From Leisingera sp. M658 (GTDB taxonomy: Bacteria > Pseudomonadota > Alphaproteobacteria > Rhodobacterales > Rhodobacteraceae): 64,000 nt of DNA. Shown one piece after another: positions 23,779 through 61,208 of this stretch. The stretch is from the NCBI RefSeq assembly GCF_025144145.1, contig NZ_CP083546.1, positions 946,501 to 1,010,500 on the forward strand, in the 5' to 3' direction. How positions within the stretch are numbered: the first letter of the stretch is position 1; each line of letters begins with the position of its first letter. The notes below the pieces were generated by a model, which searched no databases, had not been told where the DNA came from, and saw only the letters and a list, made by a program, of their open reading frames with translations. A program made the translations under genes and the position numbers.

Positions 23779-23804
23779 AGGGGCTGGGGGTTCTTGTTGA
23801 TGTG

Positions 23805-23831
23805 TGACGTCCGACAGCGGAACTGCGTCTT
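23805..23831 (+). repeat. Left terminal inverted repeat of the transposon
   Basis: Begins TGACGTCCGACA and ends AACTGCGTCTT. It matches the right end, read on the minus strand from 61187, at 24 of 27 positions. The next bases include TGCGACAAA, a word also found inside the right end (minus strand, about 61106-61114), as expected for repeated transposase sites. Confidence 0.88.
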
Positions 23832-23917
23832 TGCGACAAAAAACGGGTTTTTGATCTAGGCTTCTACGGCGCTGTAGAACTGTCCGTTTGGGCGGCAAAG
23901 TGCCTCACCAATCAGAG

Positions 23918-23941
23918 AAGGCGGAGCTAGTGCTCCGCCTT
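23918..23941. terminator. Hairpin near the left transposon end
   Basis: Perfect 10-bp stem AAGGCGGAGC/GCTCCGCCTT with loop TAGT followed by a pyrimidine-rich stretch. It lies within the left end, between nrdJ and the convergent nucleotidyltransferase gene, and could insulate the cargo from nrdJ transcription. The rest of 23842-24071 holds nothing I recognise. Confidence 0.6.
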
Positions 23942-24071
23942 CCTCGCTTTCTGGGTGGGTACATGCGAAACTGGATTGCTTTCCGCAGTCATTTGCAATT
24001 CCTTGAGCCCAATTTTGTTTGCCGCTCAATCCAGTATGACCTCCTGTTGTCAACGCGACATAGCCTGAAGT

Positions 24072-24386
24072 TCAATGCTCAAGAAGGGCCGACAGCGTCC
24101 TTTCAGTGAGGTCTTCCGCAAAGTGCAGGTCCAGTTTGACCTGGGCGTTTGAAGCGGTGTCTTCCGCGAACCTGCGGACCATTGCGCGCTCCCCGCAAGA
24201 CAGCTTGCCCAGTATCATTAGGTCAATGTCCGAGTGCTCTCGGAAATCCCCCTTAGCGAGCGATCCGAAAAGCTCATGTGCGATTCCTTTGCGTGCCAAT
24301 TCCGAATGAATCGTCTGCCAGGCGGCTTTTGCCGCCTTCAGATGCAGTTGCCTGCGCTGCTCCTGCAAAACTTCGAAACGTGTCAT
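24072..24386 (-). CDS. MNT-type nucleotidyltransferase domain protein
   Basis: A 104-residue small nucleotidyltransferase of the MNT (minimal) class. The metal-binding motif reads GSLAKGDF then SDIDLMI, and a further Asp in VKLDLHF would be the third ligand. The ATG at 24386 follows GGGAG at good spacing; the frame extends further upstream without a signal. MNT proteins usually pair with a HEPN toxin and silence it by AMPylation. No HEPN gene adjoins this one, so it is an orphan or acts with the RES/HEPN-type protein 4.4 kb away. Confidence 0.75.
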   Translation of the reverse strand: MTRFEVLQEQRRQLHLKAAKAAWQTIHSELARKGIAHELFGSLAKGDFREHSDIDLMILGKLSCGERAMVRRFAEDTASNAQVKLDLHFAEDLTERTLSALLEH

Positions 24387-24718
24387 CCGGGTCTCCCTGC
24401 CCCCAAAATAGAGGCTGCTCCGGTAACTGTCATGGGAAAGGTTGATTTGGGGCAGCTGCATGGCCACAAGCGAAAGCTTGATTTGGGAAATGGCAAAGGG
24501 CCGTTCCCGGTACTCGTGTAAACAGGGGCGGAAAGCAGACGATCGCTACGGGCGCGGGATAAATTCAAGCAGCTAAGCAAAGCAGACATCGAATAGGCTG
24601 ACGTTTTGAGCACGGTAGCCCTAGATGCACACATGGCATTTCAAATTGAAATGCATCTCAATATACTCATCCTAAACGTGCCACGTGATCTTGATAGCGG
24701 CCGAAACAGGAATTTTTA
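24387..24718. other. Divergent intergenic region upstream of the Gabija-like operon
   Basis: A 332-base region between the nucleotidyltransferase gene and the OLD-family nuclease gene. Composition falls toward AT-rich near the nuclease gene. It holds a perfect inverted repeat at 24636-24654, listed separately, and no convincing gene. Confidence 0.5.
24636..24654 (+). promoter_or_regulatory. Perfect inverted repeat, candidate operator of the Gabija-like operon
   Basis: Arms GCATTTCAA and TTGAAATGC around a single central A, 65 bases before the gajA-like start. The size and symmetry suit a dimeric repressor. No cognate regulator is encoded next to it. Confidence 0.45.
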
Positions 24719-26560
24719 ATGCATATTCATCGTCTCAAGATTTCCGGCCTGCGTGGGGTGCAAGACGCAGACATTACATTTGGCAAACACTCAGTTCTTG
24801 TTGGGCCGAACAATAATGGCAAGACAACGATTGTTGAGGCTCTTGCACTGTTGCTAGGGAGGGACCGATTGGTTCGGCGCTTGACCGAACATGACTTTCA
24901 CCAAAGCAGACCAATCGAAACATCTCGAATCTTAATTGTCGCCACCATCGCAGGCTTTCCCGAAAATGACCCGCAACATAGTCCGTCTTGGTTTGCGATG
25001 GATCGCGGAGGCGTTGAGAAGTGGCTCAACCCAAGTACAGGCTCCCTTGCCGCCTCGGCAGACGAACATCACACTGAGCTTAGTGTTCAGATAGCATTTG
25101 CGGCCCGTTTTGATCTCCAAGAACTCGAAGCCGAAACTGTCAGGTTCTTTGTGGATGATGAAGCAAACCTTGGTGATCCGTTCCATGAAGATACAAGCCA
25201 CACTCCGATTTCGTCAAAGACGCTTCAAGAACTTGGATTCTTCATGGTCCCAGCTTCCCGAGCATGGGACAAATGGATTTCTTTTACTTCAGAGCTTTTT
25301 CGACGTCTCGTTGCAACATTGGGTGGTCTTCCTGCGACTGCTATACGCGATGCAAGGGAACGTCTTTGGGAACCGGGAACAGGTCAGCGGTTAGAAGAAC
25401 AGGACGGCCTAAAAGCAATTGTTGAGCAGGCCAATGATGAACTTGGAAAGCTCATGCCATCATCACCAAGACTTCAGCTTCGGATTACAGGCACAGACAG
25501 CAATTCAGTCCTTGAAACTGTCGTGCCTCATTTTGCTCACGGGGACGGCCCAACCCTCCCTTCCGCCCGGCAGGGAACTGTCTTGACTTCCTTGCAAAGC
25601 CTTCTGTTGCTGATGCAATTCGGCAAGGCCAGAGCAGATGCGAATAAGTCATTCGTCCTCGCGGTGGAGGAGCCCGAACTACACATTCAACCTTCTCAAC
25701 AAAAGCGGCTCGTCAACCGGCTAAACGCGCTCTGCGATCAGACTATTGTCACTACACACTCGCCACTTGTTGCGGCGATGTTCCCTGTCGAAGCAACTTA
25801 CTTTGTCGACAACGACGATGGGCAAATGTCTGTTTCGCCATTGTCAAAGACAGCACCCGCTGGTCCGACCAATCACAAGCAACACCTCTTTTTTGCTTGG
25901 CGACAAAAGCTGATTGCCGCGCTGATGCATCAGCGTGTTTTGGTCCCAGAGGGTATCAGCGATGTCGCTTGGCTAGAGGCGCTCCAAACTGCTTTGGAGC
26001 TTAGGCAAAGTTGGGATTCGCCTGAAGACGAACAATCGAAGTTTTCGACGTTTGTTGGGGTCGTGCCCACAGACGACGCAAAGATTGCTGAGACGCACGA
26101 AGCGGTCAGACGGGTCCATCATCATTGCGCGATCCTTGTCGACGGAGATCAAGCCGGAAGGGACTACCTAACGGAACTGAATGCGGTTGATCCATCGCCT
26201 AGTGCGGCAATCATATGGCCAACTGGTTGGAAAGTTGAGCACGTGGTCACTTGGATTGCGGAAGCAAACCTTGCACAAGTTTTGCCTCACTTAGCTGAAG
26301 CCAATGGCACGGCAATCGGTAACGCGGCAGAGCTTTCTGCTTTTCTAGAAAAAAGAAAGTCCTACGCCCCCACACAAGAAATCACGTCGGCGATCCTGAT
26401 GGGCGAAGCCGCATGCCGCAAGAGGGCAGCGCAGCTACTTAATGCACTGTGTGACACACTAATTGACCCATCAGTCCAGAGCTCTCCACTTTTCGTTCGA
26501 GAGACCGACGACGGTGCTGCAATGCCCACCTTCCGTTTCGAACCGCCCAATGACCTTTGA
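24719..26560 (+). CDS. gajA: Gabija-like GajA: OLD-family ATPase/TOPRIM nuclease
   Basis: A 613-residue protein with an N-terminal ABC-type ATPase and a C-terminal TOPRIM nuclease, the OLD family layout. Walker A GPNNNGKTT is at 29-37, Walker B VEEPELHIQP at 316-325, the H-loop TTHSP at 345-349. The TOPRIM acidic motifs are VLVPEGISD at 407-415 and VDGDQAG at 474-480. Adjacent to a UvrD-like helicase it fits class 2 OLD, the GajA of Gabija, a nucleotide-sensing DNA endonuclease against phage. AGGA lies eight bases before the ATG. AT-rich relative to the backbone. Confidence 0.85.
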   Translation: MHIHRLKISGLRGVQDADITFGKHSVLVGPNNNGKTTIVEALALLLGRDRLVRRLTEHDFHQSRPIETSRILIVATIAGFPENDPQHSPSWFAMDRGGVEKWLNPSTGSLAASADEHHTELSVQIAFAARFDLQELEAETVRFFVDDEANLGDPFHEDTSHTPISSKTLQELGFFMVPASRAWDKWISFTSELFRRLVATLGGLPATAIRDARERLWEPGTGQRLEEQDGLKAIVEQANDELGKLMPSSPRLQLRITGTDSNSVLETVVPHFAHGDGPTLPSARQGTVLTSLQSLLLLMQFGKARADANKSFVLAVEEPELHIQPSQQKRLVNRLNALCDQTIVTTHSPLVAAMFPVEATYFVDNDDGQMSVSPLSKTAPAGPTNHKQHLFFAWRQKLIAALMHQRVLVPEGISDVAWLEALQTALELRQSWDSPEDEQSKFSTFVGVVPTDDAKIAETHEAVRRVHHHCAILVDGDQAGRDYLTELNAVDPSPSAAIIWPTGWKVEHVVTWIAEANLAQVLPHLAEANGTAIGNAAELSAFLEKRKSYAPTQEITSAILMGEAACRKRAAQLLNALCDTLIDPSVQSSPLFVRETDDGAAMPTFRFEPPNDL

Positions 26561-27878
26561 CTTCTTCGAAGGGCCTGCTGGATCTGGAAAGACCTTCAGC
26601 ATGGTGGCTCACGCCCGTCAATTGATCGAGAACGACGTGTTGGGTGAAGGTCAACGTATGCTTGCCCTTACCTTTATGAACGGTGCGCGACGGCGGCTAA
26701 CGGAAAGCTTGAACGCTGAAACTTCATTCAGACGGAAGTTCGACTGTCTTACCTTTGACTCTTTTGCTCAGACATTAGCCACACGAAGAAGCGCGAAACT
26801 GACCGACGAGATGCGGCAGCAAGCAGGGGAATTGGGCCAGTTTCACGGGCCTTGTTTCTTGGCTGGTGAGCTCCTGAAAGATGCAGAGGTTCGCCGTTGG
26901 GTGGCAAGAACCTACCCCTTGGTGCTGGTCGATGAGGCTCAAGACCTTGATATCCATCGGCAAGGAATAATTCTTGGTTTGAAGGAGTGTTGCGCGGTTG
27001 TTGTTGCCGCGGACAGTTTCCAGTGTTTGAGCGATGGCCAAGAAACAGCAGACTTCATCGACCAATTGCTAGGCGCCGGAACCTCTCACTCCCTTACTCA
27101 AAGTCACCGAACAGACAAGAGTGGTTTGCTTGCCGCCGCTTTGGCAGTGAGGAGAGGTGAAGACATTCGGGACGTGTTGAAAGAGGAAACGATCGGGAAG
27201 ACTGACAGGGTTCATTGGGTCGGCGAAGGTATTGAACTTTTGGAAGTTCCAGCCACGGCTAAAAATCCAGGATTGCTCGCATGGAATTTGGCGTTTCAAT
27301 TGAGACTTGGCTCTGACGACGTTGCAATCCTCACGCCAGATTCGAAGTACACAATCATACGGAGAGCAATTAATACGGTCACAGAAAAGCAAAGGCCATG
27401 GCCACACAACGCATTTTCAGTCTGTTGGGAAGGCGGTGATAACAGCATTGCGGACGAGCTGACAGAAGCGATTGGGTTTCCAGCCTCAGCTTCATACGAT
27501 GAAGTATGTGCATTGCTGGCCAATCACTTGGCAATGCCCACGGTCAAATCAGTGGACCGGCGTATCCGCAGGCTGCATAGGGTGACAGGCCAAAGTGAGT
27601 TCAAAAAAGATCAACTGGTTTCCTTTGTCTCAGATGCAGTCAGAACCAACACACGCCTTGGCTTCAGGAAAAGTGCGAGAATAAAAGCTATGTCCATTCA
27701 TGGAGCAAAAAACAGGGAGTTTGACAGAGTTATTGTCTTGTGGCCGCAATCAGCAACCGGAAGTGATGAGCACAAGCGGCGCTTGCTCTACAATGCAGTG
27801 ACACGCGCAAAGAGCCATTGCGCCATTATTGTTCTTGGAGATGGGCGGCTGAATTCATCTCCCTTCGCTCCATCCTAA
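26550..27878 (+). CDS. gajB: Gabija-like GajB: UvrD/Rep-type helicase
   Basis: A 442-residue superfamily 1 helicase. Motifs in order: Walker A GPAGSGKT at 8-15, Walker B VDEAQD at 127-132, AADSFQCL (motif III position), QSHRTDKSG (motif IV) and, near the C-terminus, SIHGAKNREFDRVIVL and LYNAVTRAKS (motifs V and VI). It is shorter than housekeeping UvrD, as GajB proteins are. The ATG lies 11 bases inside the end of gajA, so translation is coupled. In Gabija, GajB hydrolyses nucleotides and joins GajA in a large complex. Confidence 0.83.
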   Translation: MTFDFFEGPAGSGKTFSMVAHARQLIENDVLGEGQRMLALTFMNGARRRLTESLNAETSFRRKFDCLTFDSFAQTLATRRSAKLTDEMRQQAGELGQFHGPCFLAGELLKDAEVRRWVARTYPLVLVDEAQDLDIHRQGIILGLKECCAVVVAADSFQCLSDGQETADFIDQLLGAGTSHSLTQSHRTDKSGLLAAALAVRRGEDIRDVLKEETIGKTDRVHWVGEGIELLEVPATAKNPGLLAWNLAFQLRLGSDDVAILTPDSKYTIIRRAINTVTEKQRPWPHNAFSVCWEGGDNSIADELTEAIGFPASASYDEVCALLANHLAMPTVKSVDRRIRRLHRVTGQSEFKKDQLVSFVSDAVRTNTRLGFRKSARIKAMSIHGAKNREFDRVIVLWPQSATGSDEHKRRLLYNAVTRAKSHCAIIVLGDGRLNSSPFAPS

Positions 27879-27888
27879 AGGGATTTTC

Positions 27889-28473
27889 ATGGAATTCATC
27901 ACCCAGTTTTTTCAGGCTTTGAAGTCACCAAAAACGGCCCTTGTGCTGTTTTTGTTTAGTGGAGCGCTCCTGTTTATTCCCATCGACCGTTTGGGGCTAA
28001 AACAGCCCGAGTTTACCGACGCGTATCAGACGCAAATTCTGTTAGTTTTCTTTTTGTCCTCGGCAGTTCTTATCTTGGAAATGGCAATATGGACGGTTTC
28101 CACGATCAGTGCTCCCTTCCAAAGGCGGGCACGCGAAAAGGCTTACCAAGAGAATATCGAAAAGACTTTTTATTCACTGAACCTCGATGAACTTTGTGTG
28201 CTTTGGGCAATGACTCAAGGTGGCTCAAAAACGATTAAGGCGAGCTATGACAACCATGTAATGGTGTCGCTCAGGCAGAAAAATGCCTTAGGATTGATGA
28301 CGGGTTTCCAAAGCTTACACGAGGCGCATCACTATATGCCTGACGCACTTTTTGAACTTGTGGCGGAGCGTGGTTACGAGCGCATGCCTGCAGAATTTAG
28401 GAACTCCGTACGGTTTGAGGATGAAGTCCGAGAGAGAGTGCATCGATCTATAGATTGGCGCACTTGGGGCTAG
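27889..28473 (+). CDS. SieB-like two-helix membrane protein
   Basis: A 194-residue protein with two membrane helices at about residues 14-32 and 47-69 and then a cytoplasmic domain (REKAYQENIEKTFYSLNLDELCVLWAMTQGG). The layout and the domain resemble superinfection exclusion protein B, which aborts phage infection; I judge this by pattern only. It starts 10 bases after gajB and shares its composition, so it looks like a third operon member. Gabija is described as a two-gene system, so this would be an added effector or an independent passenger. Confidence 0.6.
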   Translation: MEFITQFFQALKSPKTALVLFLFSGALLFIPIDRLGLKQPEFTDAYQTQILLVFFLSSAVLILEMAIWTVSTISAPFQRRAREKAYQENIEKTFYSLNLDELCVLWAMTQGGSKTIKASYDNHVMVSLRQKNALGLMTGFQSLHEAHHYMPDALFELVAERGYERMPAEFRNSVRFEDEVRERVHRSIDWRTWG

Positions 28474-28771: not shown

Positions 28772-29977
28772 TTACCCATTTAGCGGGTAGTGTTGAGGTC
28801 CTGGGGCAATAGTGGAAGGACGTTCAGGCGCGGTATAACTGACGCTCTCAACGTATCGCACTCCAGAATGGGCGTCTACAAATGCCGCATTCGTTGGGTC
28901 GAAAAGGCAAAGGTTGGCACCTTCTGAAACCGAACTGCGAAAACGAACTGCATCGAACCCTCGCTGCTTCAAAACCTCGGCCAGCAATTGAGTGATCCGA
29001 TAGCTGACCTTGTCCTCCGGCGTCACGGGTGTGCTCATCAGGCGATCAAAGTAATGAATGACTTCGTACATCTCTAGCCGATTTTCGTTGGTCGCAAAGA
29101 GGGCAATATCTGGATCAAAGTCTGCAACGCAAAGATCCTTGTTGATTTCAAATCCACCCAGAGAAACATAGTGCCCGGGATGGGGGCGTATTTCCGCGAG
29201 AGCGGTATCTGGATTGGATCCAAGGTAAAGTACAGGATTGCCTATGCGGTTGAGTCGACCGTTTCCTGGGTTCGGTGACGCGCCAATCTGGGCGCCCATG
29301 TGAGGTTTGCGTACGATTTTACTTTCGAAGCCCAGGGAGCGAACGAAGCGACTTTCGTAGCCGGTGCGCGCCCTAAACCAAATGCCTCCCTTTGGCAACA
29401 CGAATTTCAGGTCTGATATGAATGGGGAAATCACCGCATCGAGTTCTCCCGAAACTTCTTCGAAGTTTTCAGCATCGATGCGCTTTCTTAGATCGCTTAC
29501 TGTTTTTGGCCTTGCACGAGAGATGGCGAAGTTCATCATGCGCTGGCCACCGGAATCGAATCCCGCATAAACTGAAATTCCCTTATCCCAATCCGGATAA
29601 GCCGGCTCCTGCAATAGGTAATCAAATTCGTCAAGATGTTCGTCACAAGCAAACGGCTTGAGTATTGGGTTCTCAGGGTTACTAAACAGATCGAGAACTG
29701 AATCTCCACCCCAATGGTGGTTGTATGCGAGTTCATCCCAGTAAAAACGGATCAGTGCTCGAATTAGCATTACCATTGATTCAGTGTCGTTCGGATTGCG
29801 CACCGTGGCATCCGTTTTGCAACAAATGCCACAGACCCCAATGACACTGTCGGCTTCAATGTTGCGTTTTAAACTCGGATGCTGTGCGCACTCTAAACAA
29901 ACGCTGACCTTCAAATCTTCTTCATCCACTTGCACTAGTCTACTGCCTCGTCTAGTCAACAAGCGAGAGAATGTCAT
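28772..29977 (-). CDS. RES domain protein with HEPN/RES-type N-terminus
   Basis: A 401-residue protein. The C-terminal half is a RES domain: GIWFRARTGYE, then NRIGNPVLYLGSNPDTALAEIRPHPG split by the usual Arg and Glu contacts, and EGANLCLFDP near the end. RES proteins degrade NAD+ and serve as toxins, normally next to a Xre-family antitoxin. The N-terminal part has two Cys pairs (CLEC and CGICC) followed by a helical region, as in the HEPN/RES N-terminal domain family. The ATG at 29977 was preferred because GGAGGT precedes it. No Xre antitoxin adjoins it, which suggests a larger defence-type protein rather than a classical pair. Confidence 0.75.
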   Translation of the reverse strand: MTFSRLLTRRGSRLVQVDEEDLKVSVCLECAQHPSLKRNIEADSVIGVCGICCKTDATVRNPNDTESMVMLIRALIRFYWDELAYNHHWGGDSVLDLFSNPENPILKPFACDEHLDEFDYLLQEPAYPDWDKGISVYAGFDSGGQRMMNFAISRARPKTVSDLRKRIDAENFEEVSGELDAVISPFISDLKFVLPKGGIWFRARTGYESRFVRSLGFESKIVRKPHMGAQIGASPNPGNGRLNRIGNPVLYLGSNPDTALAEIRPHPGHYVSLGGFEINKDLCVADFDPDIALFATNENRLEMYEVIHYFDRLMSTPVTPEDKVSYRITQLLAEVLKQRGFDAVRFRSSVSEGANLCLFDPTNAAFVDAHSGVRYVESVSYTAPERPSTIAPGPQHYPLNG

Positions 29978-30260
29978 CAGATGTGGTGAACCTCCATAGG
30001 GGAACACCACATTTTTTCAGAGTAATTCATCCCATTTCTGTCGGCTGGCGCTATATGTTTGATGCCCAACTGAGCGACAGGAATAAGCCTTTGGTTGCTT
30101 TGGATTATTTGCCGTCGTTTGCGTCTATTACGCGAGTGGCGGCATTGCCCCGCCTCACCGGCCTCTGACGATCGTGCCGATGCTGCATAGCGCATGAAGG
30201 GCCGTTTCGGTGAAGCCGCGTCGCAGCGACCGGTTCGGGTGTGAAAGGCAGCAATGGGCG

Positions 30261-31868: not shown

Positions 31869-32726
31869 TTAGCTGGAACCGGCTGAAGCGAAGATCTGGC
31901 ACATAGTTTTTCCGTCGCTGGAATAGAAGTGAGCCCAGCCTATTTGAGGCCGTGTTGAAGCCCCGGCGTCCAGGCAAATGGCCCGGTAGTTATCAATCCC
32001 GTCCATCTCGGCCATGGCCTCTACCCGCGGGTTCAAATCCTCTCGCACGGCCGGTGTGTGTCCATGGACAACGATTGTTGCCCCCTTGAAATAACCCCCT
32101 TCGCCATAGTCCCAGCCATCTGCGAAACATAAGAACTTGTGACGGATTCCGGCCCAGTGGCTATCAGAGAGAGGCCGGTGCCGGTCTAGATGTCTTTCCG
32201 GAGAGGCATCCGGATCCAAACCGGCATGAACCATGAGAAGATCGCCGATCCTCACATGCGATGGTGCGGAATGGATCGCGCGAATGAATGCCTCCGGAAT
32301 GGAAGAGGCAATGCGCTCCCTGACATCCGAAAATGGCTCTGGAGCCATGTCCGGGGCGATTTCCGCCAGCAGTGACCGGCCGCCATTGGCCAGCCAGAGA
32401 TGATGATCACCGCCGTTCAGAACATTGAGGAGCGCCAGCTCATGGTTGCCTGGCAAAATGAGCTTTTCGTCTGCGCCTGCCAGGCTTCCCGCTTCTAGTG
32501 CCAAGCGGATGGCGCGCAAGCTCTCAGGGCCGCGGTCAATCAGGTCACCGAGAAAGACCAGCACCCGCTTCTCAGCAGTTCTGTCTATTACGCGAATTGC
32601 CTCAAGGATCGCTGCAAGCTGGTCCGCTCTCCCATGCACATCTCCGATGGCAAAAAGCTCGATACCTTGCGGAAGGGTGCCGGGCAGAGGGCGCTGCGGA
32701 AGGCTGAAATTTCGGGTCTGTGGCAT
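31869..32726 (-). CDS. PPP-type metallophosphoesterase (serine/threonine phosphatase-like)
   Basis: A 285-residue phosphatase of the PPP/ApaH group. The motifs are AIGDVHGR, LGDLIDRGPES, LPGNHELAL and VHGHTPA. This is the set used by bacterial serine/threonine phosphatases and diadenosine tetraphosphatases. The sequence between motifs does not separate the two options. It lies between two other metallophosphoesterases of different subfamilies, 113 bases after the upstream one. Confidence 0.82.
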   Translation of the reverse strand: MPQTRNFSLPQRPLPGTLPQGIELFAIGDVHGRADQLAAILEAIRVIDRTAEKRVLVFLGDLIDRGPESLRAIRLALEAGSLAGADEKLILPGNHELALLNVLNGGDHHLWLANGGRSLLAEIAPDMAPEPFSDVRERIASSIPEAFIRAIHSAPSHVRIGDLLMVHAGLDPDASPERHLDRHRPLSDSHWAGIRHKFLCFADGWDYGEGGYFKGATIVVHGHTPAVREDLNPRVEAMAEMDGIDNYRAICLDAGASTRPQIGWAHFYSSDGKTMCQIFASAGSS

Positions 32727-32839
32727 GTTCCATCACGGTGGTTGATTGTTGTTTTTTGGGGGGCGGAGAGGAATGACCTGAGATGTTTTCCAGGCATGGT
32801 CCTAGCGGCGCTTAGGGGGAACTATTCCATCCTCCAATT

Positions 32840-38754: not shown

Positions 38755-38777
38755 CGAGATTCCTTAACGTCAGATGA

Positions 38778-46224: not shown

Positions 46225-46234
46225 GTCTCTGACC

Positions 46235-47491: not shown

Positions 47492-47528
47492 GCGAAACAG
47501 GCTCCATATTGAGGTTTATTTTGCCATA

Positions 47529-47555
47529 TGATACATACATGTTCTTAATGTATCA
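47529..47555. promoter_or_regulatory. Candidate operator between soxB and the RpiR-type gene
   Basis: Perfect inverted repeat TGATACAT / ATGTATCA separated by 11 bases in the divergent promoter region. The word TATGATACAT recurs in the promoter region of the MmgE/PrpD-TRAP operon at 53725-53734, so one regulator, probably the RpiR-type protein, may control both units. Confidence 0.5.
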
Positions 47556-47628
47556 ATTGATCTTTTAGATATTGGACAGATTTCTTATGGTGAGTTAACA
47601 AATCAACTGACAGGTAGCAGGAGTGGCC

Positions 47629-48483: not shown

Positions 48484-48519
48484 TAACCCCCGCCTTAAGA
48501 TCTATCATGTGCGCTTTTC

Positions 48520-49278: not shown

Positions 49279-49288
49279 ATCATACTCC

Positions 49289-50590: not shown

Positions 50591-50591
50591 C

Positions 50592-51107: not shown

Positions 51108-51200
51108 GACTCTCCTCCCAAGGCGCTACTTTTTTTGGGGACCTGCAACTACAGGCCCCCAGACTTGCTTAAGCGTCATCCGAATGTTTCGGTGCCTGTA

Positions 51201-52199: not shown

Positions 52200-52236
52200 T
52201 TTCTTCTCCTCCAGGTTGGTGTTTTATCGTGTCTCT

Positions 52237-53655
52237 TTAGGCAGCAGTCTCCCACAGGACTTTTGCCGCCAATTCCAACAGATCCACGGTTTGCAGATCA
52301 ATTTCGTGCTGGGCGAGGCCTGCAAAGTTCAGGCATTCGTTGAATTTTCTGATGAGGTCGCCGTTGGACAGCGGCCTGTTCGGCATTCCAAAGGCTTCAC
52401 CACAAAAATGGGTGCGGCTGACGCCGTCAGCATACTTGAACGTTACGCGAGTGCTTTCCGGAAAGTCAGAGGCCATTGGTTCGGCCGATAGCTCCGGACA
52501 GATTCGGGTGGTTACCCGGTCCATGATCCACTGTTTGGCATCATCGGCAAGCTCGGCTGCGCTCAGATCCTGTAGGCGGACGCTACCATGTAACATTGCA
52601 CATGCTACGCTATAGGGAAGCGAAAATTGTGCCTGCTGTGGGTTGACGGGCCGGTCATAGACCAGGCTTGCTGAGACCAGCTTGGGAACCTCTGCTTCAA
52701 TGGCGACAACCTCAGCTAAAGGTTTTGTAGCCTCCCGGGTCAACAGGCTCGCCGCTTCAATGGCAGCGTGGGCGGCAGAACAGACGGGGCTAGTTTTGAA
52801 AAGCAGCCCTGGTGATTGGACACGCCAACGCTCAGCGAGCGGGCAAATTCCTTCCCGTTTGGAAATTCCCTGATTGAGCAGGGAAAAGAACCCGTTCTTC
52901 TGTTCAAAGGCATCCTTGGGTCCGGTCAATCCCGCCTGCGCGGCCCGCGCCAGCGTGATCGCCTGACCAGCAACATTCCCGACCAGGTAGGGCTTTGCAT
53001 CCGTGCCGGCAATTGCCCGTTCAATGCCCGCTGTGACGGCTGCAGTGCCAATGGCATTGGCCGTTTGCTCGGCGTTCAGACCCAGCAACCGGGCGACGCC
53101 GGCCACGGTTCCAATGAGGGCACAAGATCCCGTCGCCCACCAGCCCTGCATGAAATGGCTATGGGTGCAGATTTCTCCCAGGGCGTAAGAGACCTCGGAT
53201 CCAATGACAAAGGCTTGAAGCAGGTCTTTTTCCGAGGCGTCGACAGATTGTGCCACCGCAAGTACAGCCGGAAGGATAATGGCCGAACCATGGATCATTC
53301 CAGTGTAGCTGTTGTCATCAAAATCCCAGACATGTGCGGCCATGCCGTTACATGTCGCGGCAGTAATAGGGTCGGTTTTGATCCCGGTAACAGCCAGGCT
53401 TGCGCCACCCGAACCGGCGCCATGCGCTGCGAGGGCCTGAACGCCAAGATGCTGGCCGCCAGCGACGATAACACCAATGGTGTCAAGAACCGCACGGCGC
53501 GCGCAGATGAGAGCATCCTCCGGCACATCCTCAAACGAGAGCTTGGACGCCCAGGCGCCAAAGTGTTCCGCCAGGTTTTCCCCTGCGGCAAACTCTGTGC
53601 CGAGAGATGTCTCGGTCAACTTTCTACTCCTTTTGTTGCTTTCAACAAGAGCCAT
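52237..53655 (-). CDS. MmgE/PrpD family protein
   Basis: A 472-residue member of the MmgE/PrpD family, which includes 2-methylcitrate dehydratase, cis-aconitate decarboxylase and iminodisuccinate epimerase. Conserved parts are ARRAVLDTIGVIVAGG, NGMAAHVWDFDDNSYTG with the active-site Asp/His region, and FSLPYSVACAML. The ATG at 53655 starts the family N-terminus; the frame open upstream runs through the promoter. First gene of the TRAP operon, so it likely acts on the imported acid. Confidence 0.88.
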   Translation of the reverse strand: MALVESNKRSRKLTETSLGTEFAAGENLAEHFGAWASKLSFEDVPEDALICARRAVLDTIGVIVAGGQHLGVQALAAHGAGSGGASLAVTGIKTDPITAATCNGMAAHVWDFDDNSYTGMIHGSAIILPAVLAVAQSVDASEKDLLQAFVIGSEVSYALGEICTHSHFMQGWWATGSCALIGTVAGVARLLGLNAEQTANAIGTAAVTAGIERAIAGTDAKPYLVGNVAGQAITLARAAQAGLTGPKDAFEQKNGFFSLLNQGISKREGICPLAERWRVQSPGLLFKTSPVCSAAHAAIEAASLLTREATKPLAEVVAIEAEVPKLVSASLVYDRPVNPQQAQFSLPYSVACAMLHGSVRLQDLSAAELADDAKQWIMDRVTTRICPELSAEPMASDFPESTRVTFKYADGVSRTHFCGEAFGMPNRPLSNGDLIRKFNECLNFAGLAQHEIDLQTVDLLELAAKVLWETAA

Positions 53656-53711
53656 GTTTGAGTTTCCTGTTATCGTTTGGGATGGTGCCGGAACAAGTCT
53701 GACAAACATTG

Positions 53712-53755
53712 AAATATATTTCGTATGATACATTTTATTCAAAATGCGTCAAATG
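53712..53755. promoter_or_regulatory. Candidate RpiR-type operator upstream of the MmgE/PrpD-TRAP operon
   Basis: GAAATATATTTC at 53712-53723 is a perfect palindrome preceded by T and fits the TGAAA/TTTCA type of RpiR sites. It is followed by TATGATACAT, shared with the soxB-rpiR region, and by a second AT-rich word AAATGATATATTTT at 53752-53765. Confidence 0.45.
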
Positions 53756-53823
53756 ATATATTTTGGCCGGTAGCATTTTTTACCCCCTTGCGAAGACATC
53801 TCTGGGTCTGATCTTCGCAAGCC

Positions 53824-54171
53824 TCAGAGGGCTGCAGTGATGGTGATTTCAACCTTCAGATCAGGGCTGGCCAAGACGGCCTCACCACAGGCGCGCGCAG
53901 GCTCATGGCCTGAAACAACCCATTGATCCCAAACTGAATTCATCTCAGCGAAATCCTCCATAGACGCCAGCCAGACAATCGCTTGCAGGATTTTTGTCTT
54001 GTCAGATCCAGCTTCTGCCAGCAGGGCTTCAACCTTTTTCATAATGCCAGCCGTCTGCTCGACTACGCTGGCACCACGTTCGCCCACCTGACCGCATAGA
54101 TAGACCGTGCCCTGATGCACGACGATCCTGCTCATCCGTCCATTACTGTGTTTTCTGGTGATTTCAGTCAT
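53824..54171 (-). CDS. ridA: RidA-family enamine/imine deaminase
   Basis: A 115-residue RidA/YjgF-type protein. VYLCGQVGERGASVVEQTAGIMKKVE split in its two conserved halves and the C-terminal CGEAVLASPDLKVEI with the Glu of the family are visible. RidA hydrolyses 2-aminoacrylate and related enamines to the keto acid and ammonia. It sits two genes from the CuyA/DcyD-type lyase, whose reaction releases 2-aminoacrylate, so the two probably act in sequence. The ATG at 54171 was chosen because the upstream frame is YeiH sequence. Confidence 0.88.
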   Translation of the reverse strand: MTEITRKHSNGRMSRIVVHQGTVYLCGQVGERGASVVEQTAGIMKKVEALLAEAGSDKTKILQAIVWLASMEDFAEMNSVWDQWVVSGHEPARACGEAVLASPDLKVEITITAAL

Positions 54172-54197
54172 GGGGGGCTCCTTTTGGAACGCCGGTT

Positions 54198-55193
54198 TCA
54201 AACGCCGACCCACTTCACAAAGGCTAGGGCGATCAACAGGAGGAATAGGGTTTCCACGCAGAGGATTGCTGCGTAGGACGGGCGCACATGCAGAAACTTG
54301 GCCAGGCTCGTCTTTACGCCAAGCGCGGAAATAGCCACGATCAAACACCAGCGTGACAGTTCGTTGACGGCTGCAATCACGTCGTCAGGCAGAAGACCGG
54401 AGTTTGCCAGGATGGCCAGCAGAACAAACATCACGAGGAACCCTGGCAGGCCAACCTTTTGTGACTGGCTGCCCCGGAAGCTGACCATGACAACCACCAT
54501 AACCACAGGCAAAAGTGCGACCCGCAGCATTTTGACAAAGGTCGCCACCACACCAGCTTCATCACTGATGGAATAGCCTGCACCCACCACCTGGGCGACA
54601 TCATGGATGGTGGCCCCGATCAGAAAGCCGCTTTCCAGATCGTTCATCCCCATGGCCTGAAACAGGATGGGATAGGCAATCATCGCAATCGTTGAAAGCG
54701 CGGTAACGCCGACAACGACAAACAGGGTGTCTTCCTCGCGGCTGGGATGTTTGGGCAGGACCGAAGCAATGGCCAGCGCGGCAGAGGCCCCGCAGATTGC
54801 AACCGATCCACCGGCCAAGAGCCCAAAGGCGCTGCGGCGCCCCAAAAGAGTGGACAACAATACGCCGCAACCAAGGGTCGCCAGAACAAAACCAACAATT
54901 GCTAGAACCGAAACCCAGCCAAGGCTTTCAACATCGCCCAAGCTCAACCTCAAACCCAGCAGTCCTACACCGAACCTCAGCAAAGTTTTGGCTGAGAATT
55001 CGATGCCTGGACGGCAGCTTTCGTCCTCGGCAAGAAAATGAAACGCCATGCCTATCAGAAGCGCAAACAGCATCACTGGAGCGGCATAATGTTCGGACAG
55101 AAAAGTTGCCGCAGCTGCGATCACCAACGCGACTATGAAACCACGTGTATGGGTTCCAAAGGTTTCACGCAGGCCTGACACTTTTGCATTCAT
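54198..55193 (-). CDS. YeiH/UPF0324-family putative sulfate exporter
   Basis: A 331-residue membrane protein with about ten helices of the YeiH/UPF0324 family. LLRFGVGLLGLRLSLGDV and GATIHDVAQVVGAGYSI are its characteristic segments. Members beside sulfonate-degradation genes are proposed to export sulfite or sulfate. Between ridA and the CuyA/DcyD-type gene this function is reasonable: the lyase would release sulfite or sulfide that must leave the cell. Confidence 0.85.
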   Translation of the reverse strand: MNAKVSGLRETFGTHTRGFIVALVIAAAATFLSEHYAAPVMLFALLIGMAFHFLAEDESCRPGIEFSAKTLLRFGVGLLGLRLSLGDVESLGWVSVLAIVGFVLATLGCGVLLSTLLGRRSAFGLLAGGSVAICGASAALAIASVLPKHPSREEDTLFVVVGVTALSTIAMIAYPILFQAMGMNDLESGFLIGATIHDVAQVVGAGYSISDEAGVVATFVKMLRVALLPVVMVVVMVSFRGSQSQKVGLPGFLVMFVLLAILANSGLLPDDVIAAVNELSRWCLIVAISALGVKTSLAKFLHVRPSYAAILCVETLFLLLIALAFVKWVGV

Positions 55194-55211
55194 GGCGTTT
55201 CAATACCTGTC

Positions 55212-56231
55212 TTAGATCTGAGCCCAGCGACCGGTAAAGTCGAAAGCGCTGTCATACCCAAACAGAGCGACCGAACCACCGGTGTGCAGGAAGACCACGC
55301 GCTCGCCTTTTTTGAAGTGGCCCTTACGGATCAAATCAATAAAACCGGCAGCCCCTTTGGCCGAATAGACTGGATCCAGCAGGATCGACTCGAGTTCGGC
55401 AAACATCTTGATCGCTTCCAAACCGCTTTCAGTCGGAATGCCGTATCCCTCACCGACATAATCGGTGTTGGCGACCACGTCTTCGCGCTGAACCACTCCT
55501 GCACAGCCCAGTTTCTCTGCCGTGGTGCAGGCTAGGTTGTAGACGTTTTCTTCTTGCTTTGCCTTTGGCGCCCGCACCCCGATCCCTAGCAGCGGGATCT
55601 GCGCATTCATCGCTTTCAGACCGGTGATCAGGCCGGCCTGGGTGCCGGCGCTGCCGGTTGCATGCACCAGGTGATTGATCTTCATACCTGCATTGTTGAC
55701 CTGGCTGAGCAATTCGAATGCGCAGTTCACATAGCCAAGCGCACCGGTTGGGTTCGAGCCACCACCTGGAATGGTGTAGACCTTTTTGCCGTCAGCCCGC
55801 ATTTGGTCAGCGACCTTTTCCATTTCGGCATTCATATCACCGCCACCAGGACGCTTTTCGGTGGTTGCGCCATGCAAGTGGTCCAACAGTACATTGCCGT
55901 TGTTGTTGTAGTTGGCGTTGTTTGACCCGGTGCGATCTTCCAGCAGAATATGGCATTGCATACCCAGTTTGGCGGCAAAGGCTGCGGTCTGACGCGCGTG
56001 GTTGGACTGGGTCGCCCCCTGCGTCAAGACAATTTCTGCTCCCTGCATTTCGGCTTCGGCCATCAGGAACTCAAGCTTTCGGGTCTTGTTGCCGCCGGTC
56101 GAAAGGCCGGTGCAATCGTCGCGCTTGATCCATATCTCTGGACCACCTAGTTCTGCAGTCAAGCGATCGAGGCGCTCCAGCGGAGTTGGCAAATGAGCAA
56201 TGAAGCGGCGGGGGTATCGGGCAAGATGCAA
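55212..56231 (-). CDS. cuyA: CuyA/DcyD-type PLP lyase (L-cysteate sulfo-lyase or D-cysteine desulfhydrase)
   Basis: A 339-residue PLP enzyme of the ACC deaminase/D-cysteine desulfhydrase family. The cofactor lysine is Lys49 in [13 protein letters not shown] and the substrate loop is [15 protein letters not shown]. Two activities are known in this subgroup: L-cysteate sulfo-lyase (CuyA, known in Roseobacter) giving sulfite, ammonia and pyruvate, and D-cysteine desulfhydrase giving sulfide. The exporter next door favours CuyA, but the sequence alone does not separate them. First gene of the lyase-exporter-ridA unit and divergent from a LysR-type regulator. Confidence 0.8.
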
Positions 56232-56335
56232 GGGACTCTCCTATTTTACTTTGCTGCATGTTATTTTGGAGGGTTCGCCATTTCTAATTCGAAATTCCGA
56301 CCCTATAATGCAACTTGTGCATATTGGAGTGGGCA

Positions 56336-57217
56336 ATGCGCTTAGAATGGATCGAAGACATTTTGGCAGTACTGGAAAACGGCTCGCTAAGCAGGGCCGC
56401 AGAAAAAAGGCTTTTAACCCAGTCCGCCTTTACACGGCGCATTCGGGCGATCGAAGAAAACATCGGTGCGGAACTTTGTGACCGCAATCGAAAGCCAGTT
56501 ACGCTTATTCAAGGTGTCGCAGCGCTGGAGCCAGAGCTGCGCGATCTGAGCGCCCGGTTGACGCGTGTGAAACGGCTTTTGAAACAGGCTCCGGAACAGA
56601 ACAGGCCGGCAGTGCAGATCGCCTGCCAACACGCGCTGACGACAACATTGTCCTCTTCTCTTATTCAAGCGATCTCCTCTGGAGATCAGTCCATCCGTAT
56701 CCGGTCTGGCAATCGCGACGAATGCATGAGGTTGCTGTTTACGGATGAAGTCGAAATCGCAATCACCTATGAAATGCTGGGAGAGACAACCACTTCGATC
56801 CCCGGGACGCTGGAGAAATCCCATCTAGGAGATGATACCCTAATTCCGGTTTGCGCCCCTCAAATGGAGGAGGCAGCACGCAGTGCCGAGATTCCCATCA
56901 TCAGCTACCCATCAGAAGTTTACCTTGGACAGATCTTCTACCAGGCGATTGTTCCTCGCATAGCTGAATCGACAGAGCTGGTATCAAAGGCCGAAACCGC
57001 TTTGACGCTTGCTATGCTGCAATTCGCCCGCGACGCTCTGGGCGTTGCCTGGCTCCCTGTATCATTAGTTTCAGAATCGCTTGCGAACGGGCAGCTGGTG
57101 GACGTAAGTGATTGCCTCCCGTCACAGAACATGGCCATATTGATGAGTCGTTTGCCCGGGAAAACGGGAACGCAAACCGACCAAATTTGGAAGTTCTATG
57201 GCGTGAGCGATACCTGA
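56336..57217 (+). CDS. LysR-family transcriptional regulator
   Basis: A 293-residue LysR-type regulator. The helix-turn-helix is near the start (LEWIEDILAVLENGSLSRAA and TQSAFTRRIRAIEENIG), and the effector domain follows. The ATG at 56336 has GGAG nearby. Divergent from the CuyA/DcyD-type gene with 104 bases between, so it most likely controls that operon, as CuyR does in related clusters. Confidence 0.88.
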   Translation: MRLEWIEDILAVLENGSLSRAAEKRLLTQSAFTRRIRAIEENIGAELCDRNRKPVTLIQGVAALEPELRDLSARLTRVKRLLKQAPEQNRPAVQIACQHALTTTLSSSLIQAISSGDQSIRIRSGNRDECMRLLFTDEVEIAITYEMLGETTTSIPGTLEKSHLGDDTLIPVCAPQMEEAARSAEIPIISYPSEVYLGQIFYQAIVPRIAESTELVSKAETALTLAMLQFARDALGVAWLPVSLVSESLANGQLVDVSDCLPSQNMAILMSRLPGKTGTQTDQIWKFYGVSDT

Positions 57218-57675: not shown

Positions 57676-57996
57676 ATGGGAACGAAACGGACGGACGAAT
57701 TCCGCGCTGATGCAGTGCGGATCGCGCTGACAAGCGGGTTAACACGCAAACAGGTGGCGTCTGATTTGGGCGTTGGCGTATCGACGCTGAACAAGTGGAA
57801 CACGACGCATCGCGATACGGAAGTGGTGTCGGACAAAGACCTCGGCCTTGCCCGCGAGAATGAACGGCTTCGACGGGAGAACCGTATTCTCAAGGAGGAG
57901 AGGGACATCCTAAAAAAACCGTTCCGGGCCGCAGCCCGCCTGTGCGCGGTAGCAACAGCTTGTGCTACGTTTTACCCGAAGGGCAGTTGCCGATAG
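57676..57996 (+). pseudogene. IS3-family OrfA, truncated
   Basis: The 106-codon frame begins as an IS3-type OrfA with a helix-turn-helix (LTRKQVASDLGVGVSTLNKW) and a leucine-zipper-like end (LARENERLRRENRILKEERD). The normal end after ILKK is replaced by an unrelated tail, so it was cut at about 57920. OrfB is absent. The 57922-58143 stretch appears to be the leader of the next IS110 copy. Confidence 0.7.
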
Positions 57997-58143
57997 CTTA
58001 TTGGTGGTTCTGACCCCGTTAAAAAACGTGGCACATGGGTTGATGCGCACTTGAGAATGGTGACGTCGCATTTGTGGCGATCCCGGTTAGGAAGATGACG
58101 AACTTGCATGGCCCACGCCCTTCGGCTGAACGGAGGAGATGCC

Positions 58144-58395
58144 ATGACAAAACCCAAGACCGGTGACCACCCGGATTTGAAGATGGTCAATCCCAATGCA
58201 GCAGCGATTGATATCGGTTCGACCATGCATATGGCAGCGGTGAACCCTAACACAGGGACCATGCCGGTGCGCGCCTTCGGGACGTTCACTCAGGATCTGC
58301 ACGATCTGGCCTCCTGGTTCCAGTCGTGCGGCGTCACCAGCGTGGCCATGGAGTCGACCGGCGTTTATCTGCCTGCATTCAAAACACTGGAAATG
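58144..58395 (+). pseudogene. IS110-family transposase N-terminal fragment (part 1 of a chimeric frame)
   Basis: From the ATG at 58144, preceded by GGAGGAG, the frame has the IS110 DEDD-domain start: AAAIDIGSTMHMAAVNP with the first Asp, then AMESTGVYLPAFKTLE. The element is cut there and the frame goes on without a stop into an amidase fragment. The whole open frame is 615 codons, 58108-59955. Confidence 0.8.
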
Positions 58396-58878
58396 TTCCG
58401 GGTCAATACACTGTCGCCCGTTGAACATATGCAGGCCGTGATCGACCGCGCCGCCGAAGTGGAGCCCAAGGTGAACGCCTTCACCTACACTTACTTCGAT
58501 GAGGCCATGAGCGCTGCCCGAGCTGCGGAGGAGAAATCTACATCGGGTCAGGACACCCGCCCGCTAGAGGGGTTGGCCATCGGTATTAAGGATGAAAGCG
58601 ATGTTGAGGGCCTGCCGGCTTCCAACGGCTCGCTGCTGCTGAAAGACATTATTGCGACCTCAACTTCACCGATGAATGAGCATGTCTTCCGCGCTGGCGG
58701 CATCATGCATGCGCGCACCGCCACACCCGAATTCTCCGGCACCGTCATCACCAACAGCAAGCTTTGGGGTGTGACCCGCAATCCCTGGAACCTCAGCCAG
58801 ACCCCCGGAGGATCTTCAGGCGGCTCCAGCGCCTCTCTGGCGTCAGGCAGCTCGGCGCTCTGCACCGGGTCGGATGTC
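58396..58878 (+). pseudogene. Amidase-signature enzyme fragment (part 2 of a chimeric frame)
   Basis: About 160 codons of an amidase (GatA/AS family): LSPVEHMQAVIDRAAEVEPKV, the catalytic-lysine region LAIGIKDESDV, and NPWNLSQTPGGSSGGSSASL with the serine motif, ending at SALCTGSDV just before the usual GGSIR motif. Both ends are missing, so the enzyme cannot work. It joins the IS110 piece on the left and the TniA piece on the right in one frame. Confidence 0.8.
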
Positions 58879-59955
58879 CGCCTGATTGGGGATGGCGATA
58901 TCCAGCAGGTGTCCAATGACAACGGAACGGAATATGGCAGAGATCCGTTCGGAGGTGCAGCATTCTCGCAGGCAGTGCGGCATTTGGCAGTGTCGCATAT
59001 GAATACTGTGGCGGGGGTGTCATCTCTGCGCGGGCACATGGAGCGCTTCTTCTGGACTTGTGATCTGAAGTGGGCCCGCTATTTGCCCGGGTACACGGCC
59101 AATAACCCTCAAAATCGAAATGACCGAAAGCCTGGTGAGGAGGCCTGCATCACCGATGATGAGTTGCACGCTATGTTCGTGGCGTTCATTGCCGAGTACC
59201 ACAACACGCCGCATCGTGGATTGAATTTCCGTACTCCTGCGGCGGTCTGGGACGAGTTGACTGAAGGGCAGACCTACGACTACGGCCAGATGCCATCCGC
59301 GTCGCAACTTCGTGAAGCCTGCGGCTTTTACACGGATGCCAGCGTCTGCGAAGCCGGGATCAGGTACGCGGGCGCAGTTTATTCCAATGAGTACACCCGC
59401 AATCAGCGCAAAGCCCGTTTGGTTGACCGCATCGCTAAGCCTGGGGAAAAAGTCGAGATTAAGGTTGATCCTTTCGATCTGGGTGCAATCACGGTCCTTG
59501 CGAAGGGCGAAATGATTTCAGTCAGCGCTCGCGATCCGCAAATGAATGGCAAAACGCTGCGCCAGTGGCAAACCGAGAAGCTCATTCGCAAGCAGCGTGC
59601 CGAGGCTGAAAACCTTTCCCGGAAAGGCGCCAGGGACGAAGCCTGCAATCTTTGGGAAAAGATGGCTTCTTCAATCGCGCAGAACGCGGATGTGGGGATG
59701 TCTGGCTATTCTCAGGCTGAAATCGACCGCGCCGCTCTGGAACTCGGTTTTGGCAAAGGACAGCATGAAAAACCGTACATCGGGCGCGATGAATACGTGG
59801 ACCCTGTCCACGGAGGCTTCGAGATTGGTGGCGGCGAATTTGTGGAGGAAGACCACCTTCGTGAGGAGGCTGAAACTGACTCCCCAACCAGCATGGACCG
59901 ATTTCGGTCTGCAGCGCGAAACCGCAAACGCAAAAAGAAACCGGAGTTGGAATAA
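58879..59955 (+). pseudogene. tniA: Truncated tniA (Mu/Tn7-type DDE transposase, C-terminal part)
   Basis: About 358 codons of a TniA/TnsB-type transposase. NDNGTEYG has the second catalytic Asp, GHMERFFWT the Glu, and EYHNTPHRGL, TPAAVWDEL and the basic C-terminal tail follow. The DNA-binding domains and the first catalytic Asp are gone, replaced by the amidase and IS110 pieces. The stop overlaps the tniB start by one base, so this is the element's own core gene, inactivated by insertion and deletion. An in-frame fusion product could still be made. Confidence 0.82.
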
Positions 59956-60965
59956 TGACCATTACTGAAGGCGATCTGGCGGACTTCAACCAATACAGTG
60001 ATACCGCTGAGTAAATGGTCAGCCTTGAGAACTATTTCGTGAAAACTCAGACGTACTGGGATTTTCGGGACCGGGTTTTCAAGGTGCTTGCGGCGCGTCA
60101 GGCGCGTCTTAAGGCAGGCAAGCACGAGTTGAAAGGTGCAGCTCTTATCGGTCCTGCAGGTGCCGGTAAATCCCGGATCGTCAAGGAAATCATCCAAGAG
60201 TATCACGCTCTGACTGAAGTTTGTGGCAGGCAAGAGTTCGGTGCTCAAATCGTCAGTGTGATCGTTCCTGGGCGTGCATCCGTGAAAGATACGCTGAAAG
60301 AGATCCTCCGAGCCCTTGGCTACCCAGTAAAATCTAACCGTGATGAAGACTATCTCACGCAGAGGGTGATGTTTTTCATGAAGAAAATGGGCGTGGCTGC
60401 TCTGCACCTCGACGAGGTGCAGGACAGCGGACGGTACAAAACCAGCGATAGCGTTGAAGTATTCAGCAAGCGGTTTCGCAACCTCATGCAAGATAGGGAG
60501 TGGCCGGTTTGCCTGATCATGACAGCAACGCCAGAAGGAAAAATGTTGATCAACCATGATCCGACGCTGACCCGCCGCTTGCGCCCGGTCGAGATGAAGC
60601 CGATGAGCTTCAAGAATGACAGTATCGTGCTGCGTAAAGCATTGGCCGAACTCTTCAAAACCGCGGGAATTTTGGATACGGGCCTCTTGGCTCAAGATGA
60701 GTTCATCAAAATTCTGATTCATGCATCTGTTGGCCGCTTCGGTGTTGCAATGGAAATGGCCATCGAGGCAATCGGGGAATGCCTTGATGAGCAAAGCCGT
60801 GAAATCGACATGGGCTTTTTTGCGGACGCCTATTCGGAGAGGATGGACTGTGATGAGGAGCTGAACCCCTTTGTTGTTGAAAACTGGAGTGCCATTGATA
60901 CTGGCACTGCCTTGCAGAGATACGAGGAAGAACGCAGGAAGCGGCGGCGACCCAAAAGCAGCTGA
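59955..60965 (+). pseudogene. tniB: tniB (TniB/TnsC-type ATPase) split by a stop codon
   Basis: The original start is the ATG at 59955, overlapping the tniA stop. After 19 codons (ending SDTAE) an in-frame TAA at 60012-60014 stops it, and an ATG follows immediately. From 60015 the remaining 316 codons are intact with Walker A GPAGAGKS (46-53 of that part), Walker B LHLDEVQD and a conserved arginine finger region TRRLRPVEM. Reinitiation at 60015 could give a nearly full ATPase lacking the N-terminal contact with the transposase. TniB/TnsC activates the transposase and selects targets with TniQ. Confidence 0.75.
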
Positions 60966-60988
60966 ACTTCGCCATGTTTTCCAAACCG

Positions 60989-61013
60989 AACCGCCCCTAG
61001 GGGCGGTTTTTTT
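60989..61013 (+). terminator. Rho-independent terminator after tniB
   Basis: A 9-bp stem AACCGCCCC/GGGGCGGTT around TA, followed directly by TTTTT. It ends the tni remnant operon about 25 bases after the tniB stop and before the right end repeat. Confidence 0.88.
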
Positions 61014-61160
61014 GTGCCCAGGTTTCGGAGCCGCATTTGAGTCTTCTTGGTCAAGACGGTCTGGACATGCCGCAGAACGGTCTGGGCGTGTCGGAAGGCG
61101 GATTTACGTTTGTCGCATGAGAATCTAAGCTATTGAAATTAAACAACCCGTAACGCGGAC

Positions 61161-61187
61161 AAGACGTAGTTCTGGTGTCGGACGTCA
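61161..61187 (-). repeat. Right terminal inverted repeat of the transposon
   Basis: Read from 61187 on the minus strand it begins TGACGTCCGACA and ends GAACTACGTCTT, matching the left end at 24 of 27 positions. Within the last 130 bases on the plus strand are a direct repeat ACGGTCTGG (about 61047-61055 and 61077-61085) and a TTTGTCGCA word also found in the left end, the usual layout of repeated transposase-binding sites. The stretch 61014-61160 contains no gene. Confidence 0.88.
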
Positions 61188-61208
61188 ATGTGAAAGCTCG
61201 CATCAGTT

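Follow-up and report, generated by a model that had tools for sequence, protein, structure and literature searches.

What is the 37.4-kb block of accessory DNA that directly follows nrdJ in Leisingera sp. M658, and how did it arrive there? The question concerns a stretch of 64,000 nucleotides of contig NZ_CP083546.1 (the window, always meant at this full length), in which the gene of a class II ribonucleotide reductase, nrdJ, is followed by a mosaic of defence, catabolic and transposition genes; an earlier note, made from the letters of the window, had described the block as one defined Tn7/Tn5053-like transposon. Comparison with related genomes suggests a Tn7-like element that entered behind nrdJ by cut-and-paste transposition and can probably no longer move unaided, a reading to which we give a probability of about 0.9. 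Coordinates are collected in Table 1.

The boundaries of the element are real. Its 27-bp terminal repeats agree at 24 positions and are flanked by exact copies of ATGTG, as the earlier note had described, and the 27-bp pattern with up to three mismatches matches twice in the window and never in 100 shuffles. If all four bases are equally frequent, an inverted pair agreeing at 24/27 and accompanied by a 5-bp duplication is estimated to arise by chance within 64 kb with a probability of about 1e-5. The end repeat is not a common dispersed sequence: its first 12 bases, TGACGTCCGACA, occur at exactly two places among the 4,890,622 bases of the genome (at 21 more with one mismatch). The pattern TGNCGTCCGACANNNGAA finds 21 places in 20 of 295 family genomes, against 5 places for a reversed control; of the 21, only three continue as ends when judged by eye, two in the host genome (G000) and one in G097. 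A hairpin like that at the left end in G097 and Pacificibacter marinus is kept at the left end of the window element, and putative TnsB sites accompany both ends. The matrix used for these sites was trained on the terminal sites themselves and one inner site of G094; the untrained inner sites at the left end of the window element (position 35) and at the right end of G193 (position 116) score 17.7 and 13.3 against 95% shuffle levels of 9.3 and 9.7, and the two inner right sites of the window element score 9.2 each, below the shuffle level of 11.0. The mosaic character of the region, with its transposase scraps, might suggest chance repeats in an island made otherwise, as an integrative and conjugative element or a prophage; but these ends, unique in the genome, are found again in the same position behind nrdJ in P. 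marinus, G097, Tropicibacter (L257) and Celeribacter (L260), and the complete P. marinus element has a duplication of its own, which leaves this explanation barely credible.

The earlier note had proposed looking for the same end repeats around other cargo, and such an element is found in P. marinus F2R14, where a complete sister with the same kind of ends and its own 5-bp duplication stands at the same site, supporting the view of one defined transposon. It encodes full-length TnsA, TnsB, TnsC and TniQ, the first three matching those of G193 at 64%, 63% and 68%; the TnsC match stops about 0.23 kb short of the right end, and the Mu-transpos_C (19.4 bits) and rve (13.6 bits) matches of its TnsB are both weak and under cut-off. 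Its cargo, named from 10 of 17 cargo open reading frames (ORFs) of at least 250 aa, comprises an AAA-M41 protease, an ABC transporter with binding protein, a ROK regulator, a multicopper oxidase, a DnaJ-domain protein, a histidine kinase, IS110 and a UvrD/GajB-like piece. In a further relative, G193, tnsA (254 aa), tnsB (744 aa) and tnsC read out to the end TATCGTCCGACAG, and all six matches of its TnsB to solved structures are TnsB or TnsAB proteins of Tn7-like elements (best Tn6677, 3e-9). A TnsA-like gene lies just upstream of tnsB in G193, G094 and P. marinus; we name this candidate TnsA by gene position and a sub-threshold match.

Tn7 combines TnsABC with TnsD, uses the site attTn7 and makes a 5-bp duplication. 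The same features recur here: a TnsABC-type set, with a TnsB-type DDE transposase recognised through G193 (the window keeps residues 395-740); a TnsC/TniB AAA+ protein and a large TniQ/TnsD-type selector, both present in the window; 5-bp duplications in the window (ATGTG), P. marinus (GTTGT) and G094 (CTATT); and oriented insertion at a fixed site, 22-26 bp behind a conserved gene. The element differs from Tn7 in that its site is nrdJ and not glmS, that tniQ is at the end opposite tnsABC and that tnsC adjoins the end; in the relatives tnsA-tnsB-tnsC read outward to one end and tniQ outward to the other. Part of the text of PMC11406308, through its Table 1, lists glmS, yhiN, comM, parE and tRNA genes as sites of Tn7-like elements and mentions exchange of the TniQ partner, and the window element would follow the same strategy at another site. 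Of the double name in the earlier note, the Tn7-like half is supported by the TnsB matches and the TnsA-like gene, below cut-off, of three relatives; the Tn5053-like half is not. A Tn5053/Tn402-type element (TniA-TniB-TniQ-TniR) would share the proteins that Pfam names TniB and TniQ and the 5-bp duplication, but the sub-cut-off TnsA-like gene, the position of tniQ apart from tniB and outside any operon with it in the window, G094 and P. marinus, the site behind a chromosomal gene and the lack of a resolvase among the 30 window ORFs scanned with Pfam (28 inside the element, of 121 mechanical ORFs) make it very improbable.

The transposition genes of the window copy are only partly preserved. 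Of the tniA, tniB and TniQ-type genes described earlier, tniB and tniQ are open frames with Pfam domains, but 'tniA' (58108-59955) is not intact: it is a chimera of an IS110-like start (18.2 bits, under the cut-off of 29), an amidase piece, a possible TnsA tail and a TnsB remnant that keeps only the C-terminal 46% of the protein, and Pfam finds no integrase core among the 30 ORFs. Positions 58876-58908 may encode the last approximately 10 residues of TnsA (9 of 11 identical, alone not significant). By comparison with G193, TnsA and the first half of TnsB have been lost, the latter presumably with the putative first catalytic aspartate, whose place is read by eye. With TnsA gone and TnsB halved, the window copy should be immobile alone, and probably is so now. 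A second, diverged TnsA-TnsB-TnsC-TniQ run lies in the same chromosome (L065 8911-14432; G000:C1, about 3.646-3.651 Mb); it is only 23-27% similar, so rescue is doubtful.

Insertion looks site-specific for the 3' end of nrdJ, whose start was placed from a 765-aa homologue in G238. Collinearity with this genome of the same genus stops 4 bp past the nrdJ stop codon, and ends of the window type (A-type) begin 26 bp past it in the host genome and G097, 22 bp in Tropicibacter and P. marinus and 23 bp in Celeribacter; in all five the left-type end (inner TTNCGACAA) faces nrdJ, the far end being found only in the host and P. marinus. End-like sequences of other types share the place. Among 61 distinct nrdJ 3' contexts from 72 loci, with end labels assigned by loose regular expressions that admit some chance matches and give no counts, three or more other end-like sequences recur with their start at this place, so that the nrdJ end seems to have served as an attachment site many times over. 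The closest relative by NrdJ, L. daeponensis (L295), has a C-type end at nrdJ and no empty site; strain DP1N14-2 of this species shares all of the last 101 NrdJ residues with the window. A search for ends with duplications at 31 nrdJ loci matched in seven (24 gave no result, many being cut by contig ends). The host element scored 23/26, and G071 and G123 scored 20/26 and 19/26, all with exact 5-bp duplications; the elements of G071 and G123 start 14 and 21 bp past nrdJ. G009 (18), G263 (18, second 16) and G232 (17) are weaker candidates, also with exact duplications. Controls with reversed duplications reached 17 (G231, G263) and 16 (G000, G075), or 18 (G013) when 4 of 5 bases sufficed, so these three rest mainly on a far end shortly past tniQ: in all five genomes it lies about 0.2-0.6 kb past the aligned end of the TniQ that follows TnsC. 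Of eight loci preselected for TnsC and/or TniQ downstream of nrdJ, an element emerged in five and none in G231, G222 and G047. A match of 17 at +43 bp in G013 was dismissed as noise.

Elements seem to stand in tandem at this site. In G073, a sequence that reads TGTGAAAGCTCGCATCAG and onward stands 21 bp past nrdJ; it is the counterpart of the sequence that in the window starts at 61,189, and its place directly behind the gene implies a tandem array and further supports the view that the intervening DNA is one transposon. The uninterrupted nrdJ junction anticipated by the earlier note is thus present, but in another genus, and it apparently belongs to an older neighbouring element ('B') whose end lies there; the right flank in P. 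marinus is by eye similar in kind. The far end of neighbour B did not emerge: with the element removed and the flanks joined, no candidate with 4-5 duplication bases exceeded threshold (a control gave 17/26 with 4/5), and a looser search yielded noise-level matches only. Right of the element (61380-65500, the window to 64000 and then L166), four genes reading towards nrdJ encode an HD dGTPase (padloc dGTPase 6e-145), an OGG-like glycosylase (3.8e-6), QueC (Pfam 1.1e-31) and a nucleoside 2-deoxyribosyltransferase-domain protein (7.8e-16), a row that resembles a defence cluster and would belong to the neighbouring element. In L252, two C-type ends lie back to back, 9 bp apart (12054/12064), and the TniQ on either side reads towards the point where they meet.

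The selector offers a second view of the site. An AlphaFold2 model of the window TniQ (P0003, with 11 homologues; mean predicted local distance difference test score 88.1, predicted template modelling score 0.67) appears, from secondary structure read by eye, to form five helix-turn-helix (HTH) repeats from residue 326 on; its best solved Foldseek matches are the TniQ proteins 6v9p (2.1e-5), 6lnd and 7u5e, with five matches below 0.001, and Xis, BldC and MerR-type domains match at E about 1, which is not significant. A three-sequence TniQ alignment used as query led to 33 named loci, 13 of which include nrdJ, at 0.14-0.24 kb from the aligned TniQ end in 11 of them, 2.2 kb in L264 and 6.7 kb in L247; in four more (L250, L253, L255 and L263) it stands 12.8-31.6 kb away on the contig that carries TniQ. 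Throughout these 17 loci, TniQ lies on the downstream side of nrdJ in convergent orientation; several of the other 16 are limited by contig ends, and L268, L272, L273 and L274 were left out of the nrdJ contig query. TniQ homologues that do not belong to this group end beside other genes, namely a GNAT acetyltransferase gene in G046 and G215 (Pfam 4e-9, 2e-9) and tRNA-Gln in G106. From its position we infer that the window TniQ reads nrdJ DNA. Homologues of the metallophosphatase MP2, at about 50% identity, stand beside TniQ in six of the 33 loci and in G094, and MP2 is a possible TniQ partner.

Several observations weigh against the Tn7-like, nrdJ-directed reading. The best Pfam match of the candidate TnsA, TnsA-like N, reaches 24.9 bits in G193 and 17.8 in P. 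marinus, under the cut-off of 26.5, and a comparison of the candidate with solved chains gave no match. The ends begin TGA, a further difference from Tn7, whose ends begin TGT. Only P. marinus, of the five A-type ends at nrdJ, has full tnsABC: G097 has no TnsC match, and the genomes of L257 and L260 have no TnsB above 26% and 23% identity respectively, so that most copies look incomplete. The G094 element, though of the same transposase family, is not at nrdJ; it adjoins DNA that by eye resembles the 3' part of a tRNA, where ARAGORN reports none but places a tRNA-Arg 19 kb on. Among the TniQ homologues, those of L249 and L266 are close and lie on other large contigs than nrdJ, that of L252 is at the two back-to-back ends without nrdJ, and no nrdJ match was found in the genomes of L267 and L270; of the 12 loci with the closest TniQ relatives (54-64%), only L247 has nrdJ inside its 10-kb flank. 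Finally, a TniQ tree was built with 29 rows, from 22 of the 33 loci, the second TniQ of L257, the window and five others; a group of 24 is separate (100/100) from the five others. In it the A-type TniQs of L257, L258 and L260 form their own clade (100/100) without that of the window, which is placed among C-associated TniQs in a clade of 12 rows (100/100); L247, L250 and L252 are those for which C ends were found.

Because its TniQ groups with another end family, the window element may be recombinant, a variant of the Tn7-like reading in which the left end on one side and the right end with TnsC on the other stem from two tandem elements at nrdJ, the middle having been rebuilt by deletion and exchange. 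The tandem neighbours of the window element and, by eye, of that in P. marinus are consistent with this, as is a second TniQ of a C-associated clade 1.2 kb inside the Tropicibacter element (L257), with no C end between. So is the left end of the window element: the other four A-type cases have tniQ some 0.15 kb in from this end (as two overlapping pieces in G097), whereas here no tniQ adjoins it although the hairpin is kept, and a nucleotidyltransferase-domain ORF and Gabija follow. Deletion or exchange is the simplest reading of this absence. Elements at a fixed site tend to share the 5-bp duplication, so ATGTG would survive on both sides, and given the fixed site it does not by itself prove that both ends arrived together. 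Against recombination stand the match of the two ends of the window element to each other, as in P. marinus, the lack of a third A-type end in the window, the possibility that a spare tniQ was picked up without fusion, and the lack of a C-type end in the window (best score 10.5, versus 7.0 in one shuffle; L247, L249, L250 and L252 gave 71.2, 68.2, 57.1 and 44.9, L251 16.7, and L253, L244, L243 and L246 at most 9.2). We regard this variant as tentative, with the odds somewhat against it. Stated for the family, with slightly less than an even chance in our estimate, the nrdJ end would be a shared landing site of several Rhodobacteraceae Tn7-like lineages, whose pile-up in tandem leads to exchange of selectors and ends, the window element being a hybrid of A-type ends and TnsABC with a C-type TniQ. 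If this is true, the TniQ clade with about five HTH units would comprise natural nrdJ readers, beside relatives reading tRNA and acetyltransferase genes.

For the Tn7-like element itself, arrival and decay may be pictured as follows. A TnsD-type TniQ would read the DNA at the nrdJ end through its row of C-terminal HTH units and recruit TnsC and the TnsAB transposase, and insertion would thereby fall behind a conserved gene, where it does no harm, by analogy with Tn7, which inserts a short distance behind glmS, as part of the text of PMC2918618 states. A zone of insertion and deletion would later have taken TnsA almost entirely and TnsB up to about its middle. What persists in the window copy carries two kinds of cargo, a Gabija-like defence pair and a catabolic block of D-cysteate/sarcosine type. 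The latter holds proline-racemase-like, Ldh_2, sarcosine oxidase SoxA/SoxB, TRAP transporter, MmgE/PrpD, YeiH-like exporter, CuyA and regulator genes; the CuyA D-cysteate sulfo-lyase scores 552 bits against a cut-off of 450, and SoxA and SoxB are above theirs. The RES-domain protein is presumably toxin-like, as its family would suggest.

Table 1. Features of the window, with related elements and end-like sequences from other genomes
Feature	Position	Strand	Evidence or remark
nrdJ, class II ribonucleotide reductase (vitamin-B12-dependent)	21481-23778	+	Pfam Ribonuc_red_lgC 3.3e-131
Left target duplication ATGTG	23800-23804	.	read directly
Left terminal repeat TGACGTCCGACAGCGGAACTGCGTCTT	23805-23831	+	26 bp past nrdJ stop
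Left putative TnsB sites	23812-23859	+	end position 8, inverted one at 35
Nucleotidyltransferase-domain ORF	24072-24467	-	Pfam NTP_transf_2 3.5e-7; between left end and Gabija
Gabija-like pair and SieB-like gene, whole block	24719-28473	+	
GajA	24719-26560	+	padloc 7.3e-47
GajB	26463-27878	+	padloc 8.1e-18
SieB-like gene	27889-28473	+	Pfam SieB 1.7e-8
RES-domain protein	28772-30010	-	Pfam RES 3.2e-17
Two metallophosphatases, second MP2 (32840-33748)	31869-33748	-	Pfam
TniQ/TnsD-type target selector, 610 aa	33928-35760	-	Pfam TniQ 5.1e-15
Tle1-like phospholipase-domain protein	36021-37508	-	Pfam 1.4e-63
Catabolic cargo block	37816-57217	- (most scanned genes)	Pfam and further scans
Scrap zone	57676-58899	+	HTH_Tnp_1 piece, IS110-like piece, amidase piece, possible TnsA tail
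TnsB remnant, residues 395-740 of 744	58900-59940	+	tblastn 63% to full-length G193 TnsB
TnsC (TniB), open frame	60015-60965	+	Pfam TniB 3.4e-16; 66% to G193; reads out towards right end
Right putative TnsB sites	61052-61180	-	end positions 8, 95, 116; inner two weak
Right terminal repeat, reverse complement TGACGTCCGACACCAGAACTACGTCTT	61161-61187	-	read directly
Right target duplication ATGTG	61188-61192	.	read directly
Outer end of older neighbour B	61189-61528	+	87.7% over 341 columns to G073
P. marinus F2R14 element, 39,360 bp	132184-171543 (L258)		ends 24/27, GTTGT twice, 22 bp behind nrdJ
G094 element, 18,624 bp			terminal repeats 20/27, duplication CTATT; tnsABC reads outward at one end, TniQ lies in pieces at the other
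End-like sequence B at nrdJ, TGTAGGACCC...TTGTCCATT	about same start as A-type end		recurrent
End-like sequence C at nrdJ, TCAGAGAAAGCA...TGCGCAA	about same start as A-type end		recurrent
End-like sequence D at nrdJ, GGAAATCACC	about same start as A-type end		recurrent
End-like sequence E at nrdJ, with CACCAATT or TGGCCATTTTCGG	about same start as A-type end		recurrent

A literature search returned no paper that pairs nrdJ with TniQ in the text it covers, supplementary tables, which may list nrdJ, lying outside it. By title and opening of the abstract, papers found for nrdJ with Tn7 treat other matters only, and nothing related appeared for Tn7 with a ribonucleotide reductase attachment site. 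The word 'ribonucleotide' is absent from the portion of PMC11406308 cited above, and 'ribonucleotide reductase' and 'nrd' are absent from the main texts of PMC10293859 and PMC8649781, as distinct from their supplementary site tables. If a family of Alphaproteobacteria has a fixed, safe site with many occupants, among them the complete candidate of P. marinus, this would provide a new homing system. Where a site is fixed, two identical 5-bp duplications say little on whether an element arrived in one event. Knowledge of the nrdJ site would help to delineate defence and catabolic islands in Rhodobacteraceae, and the elements gathered there would serve as a natural experiment in which TniQ proteins have switched from one DNA target to another.

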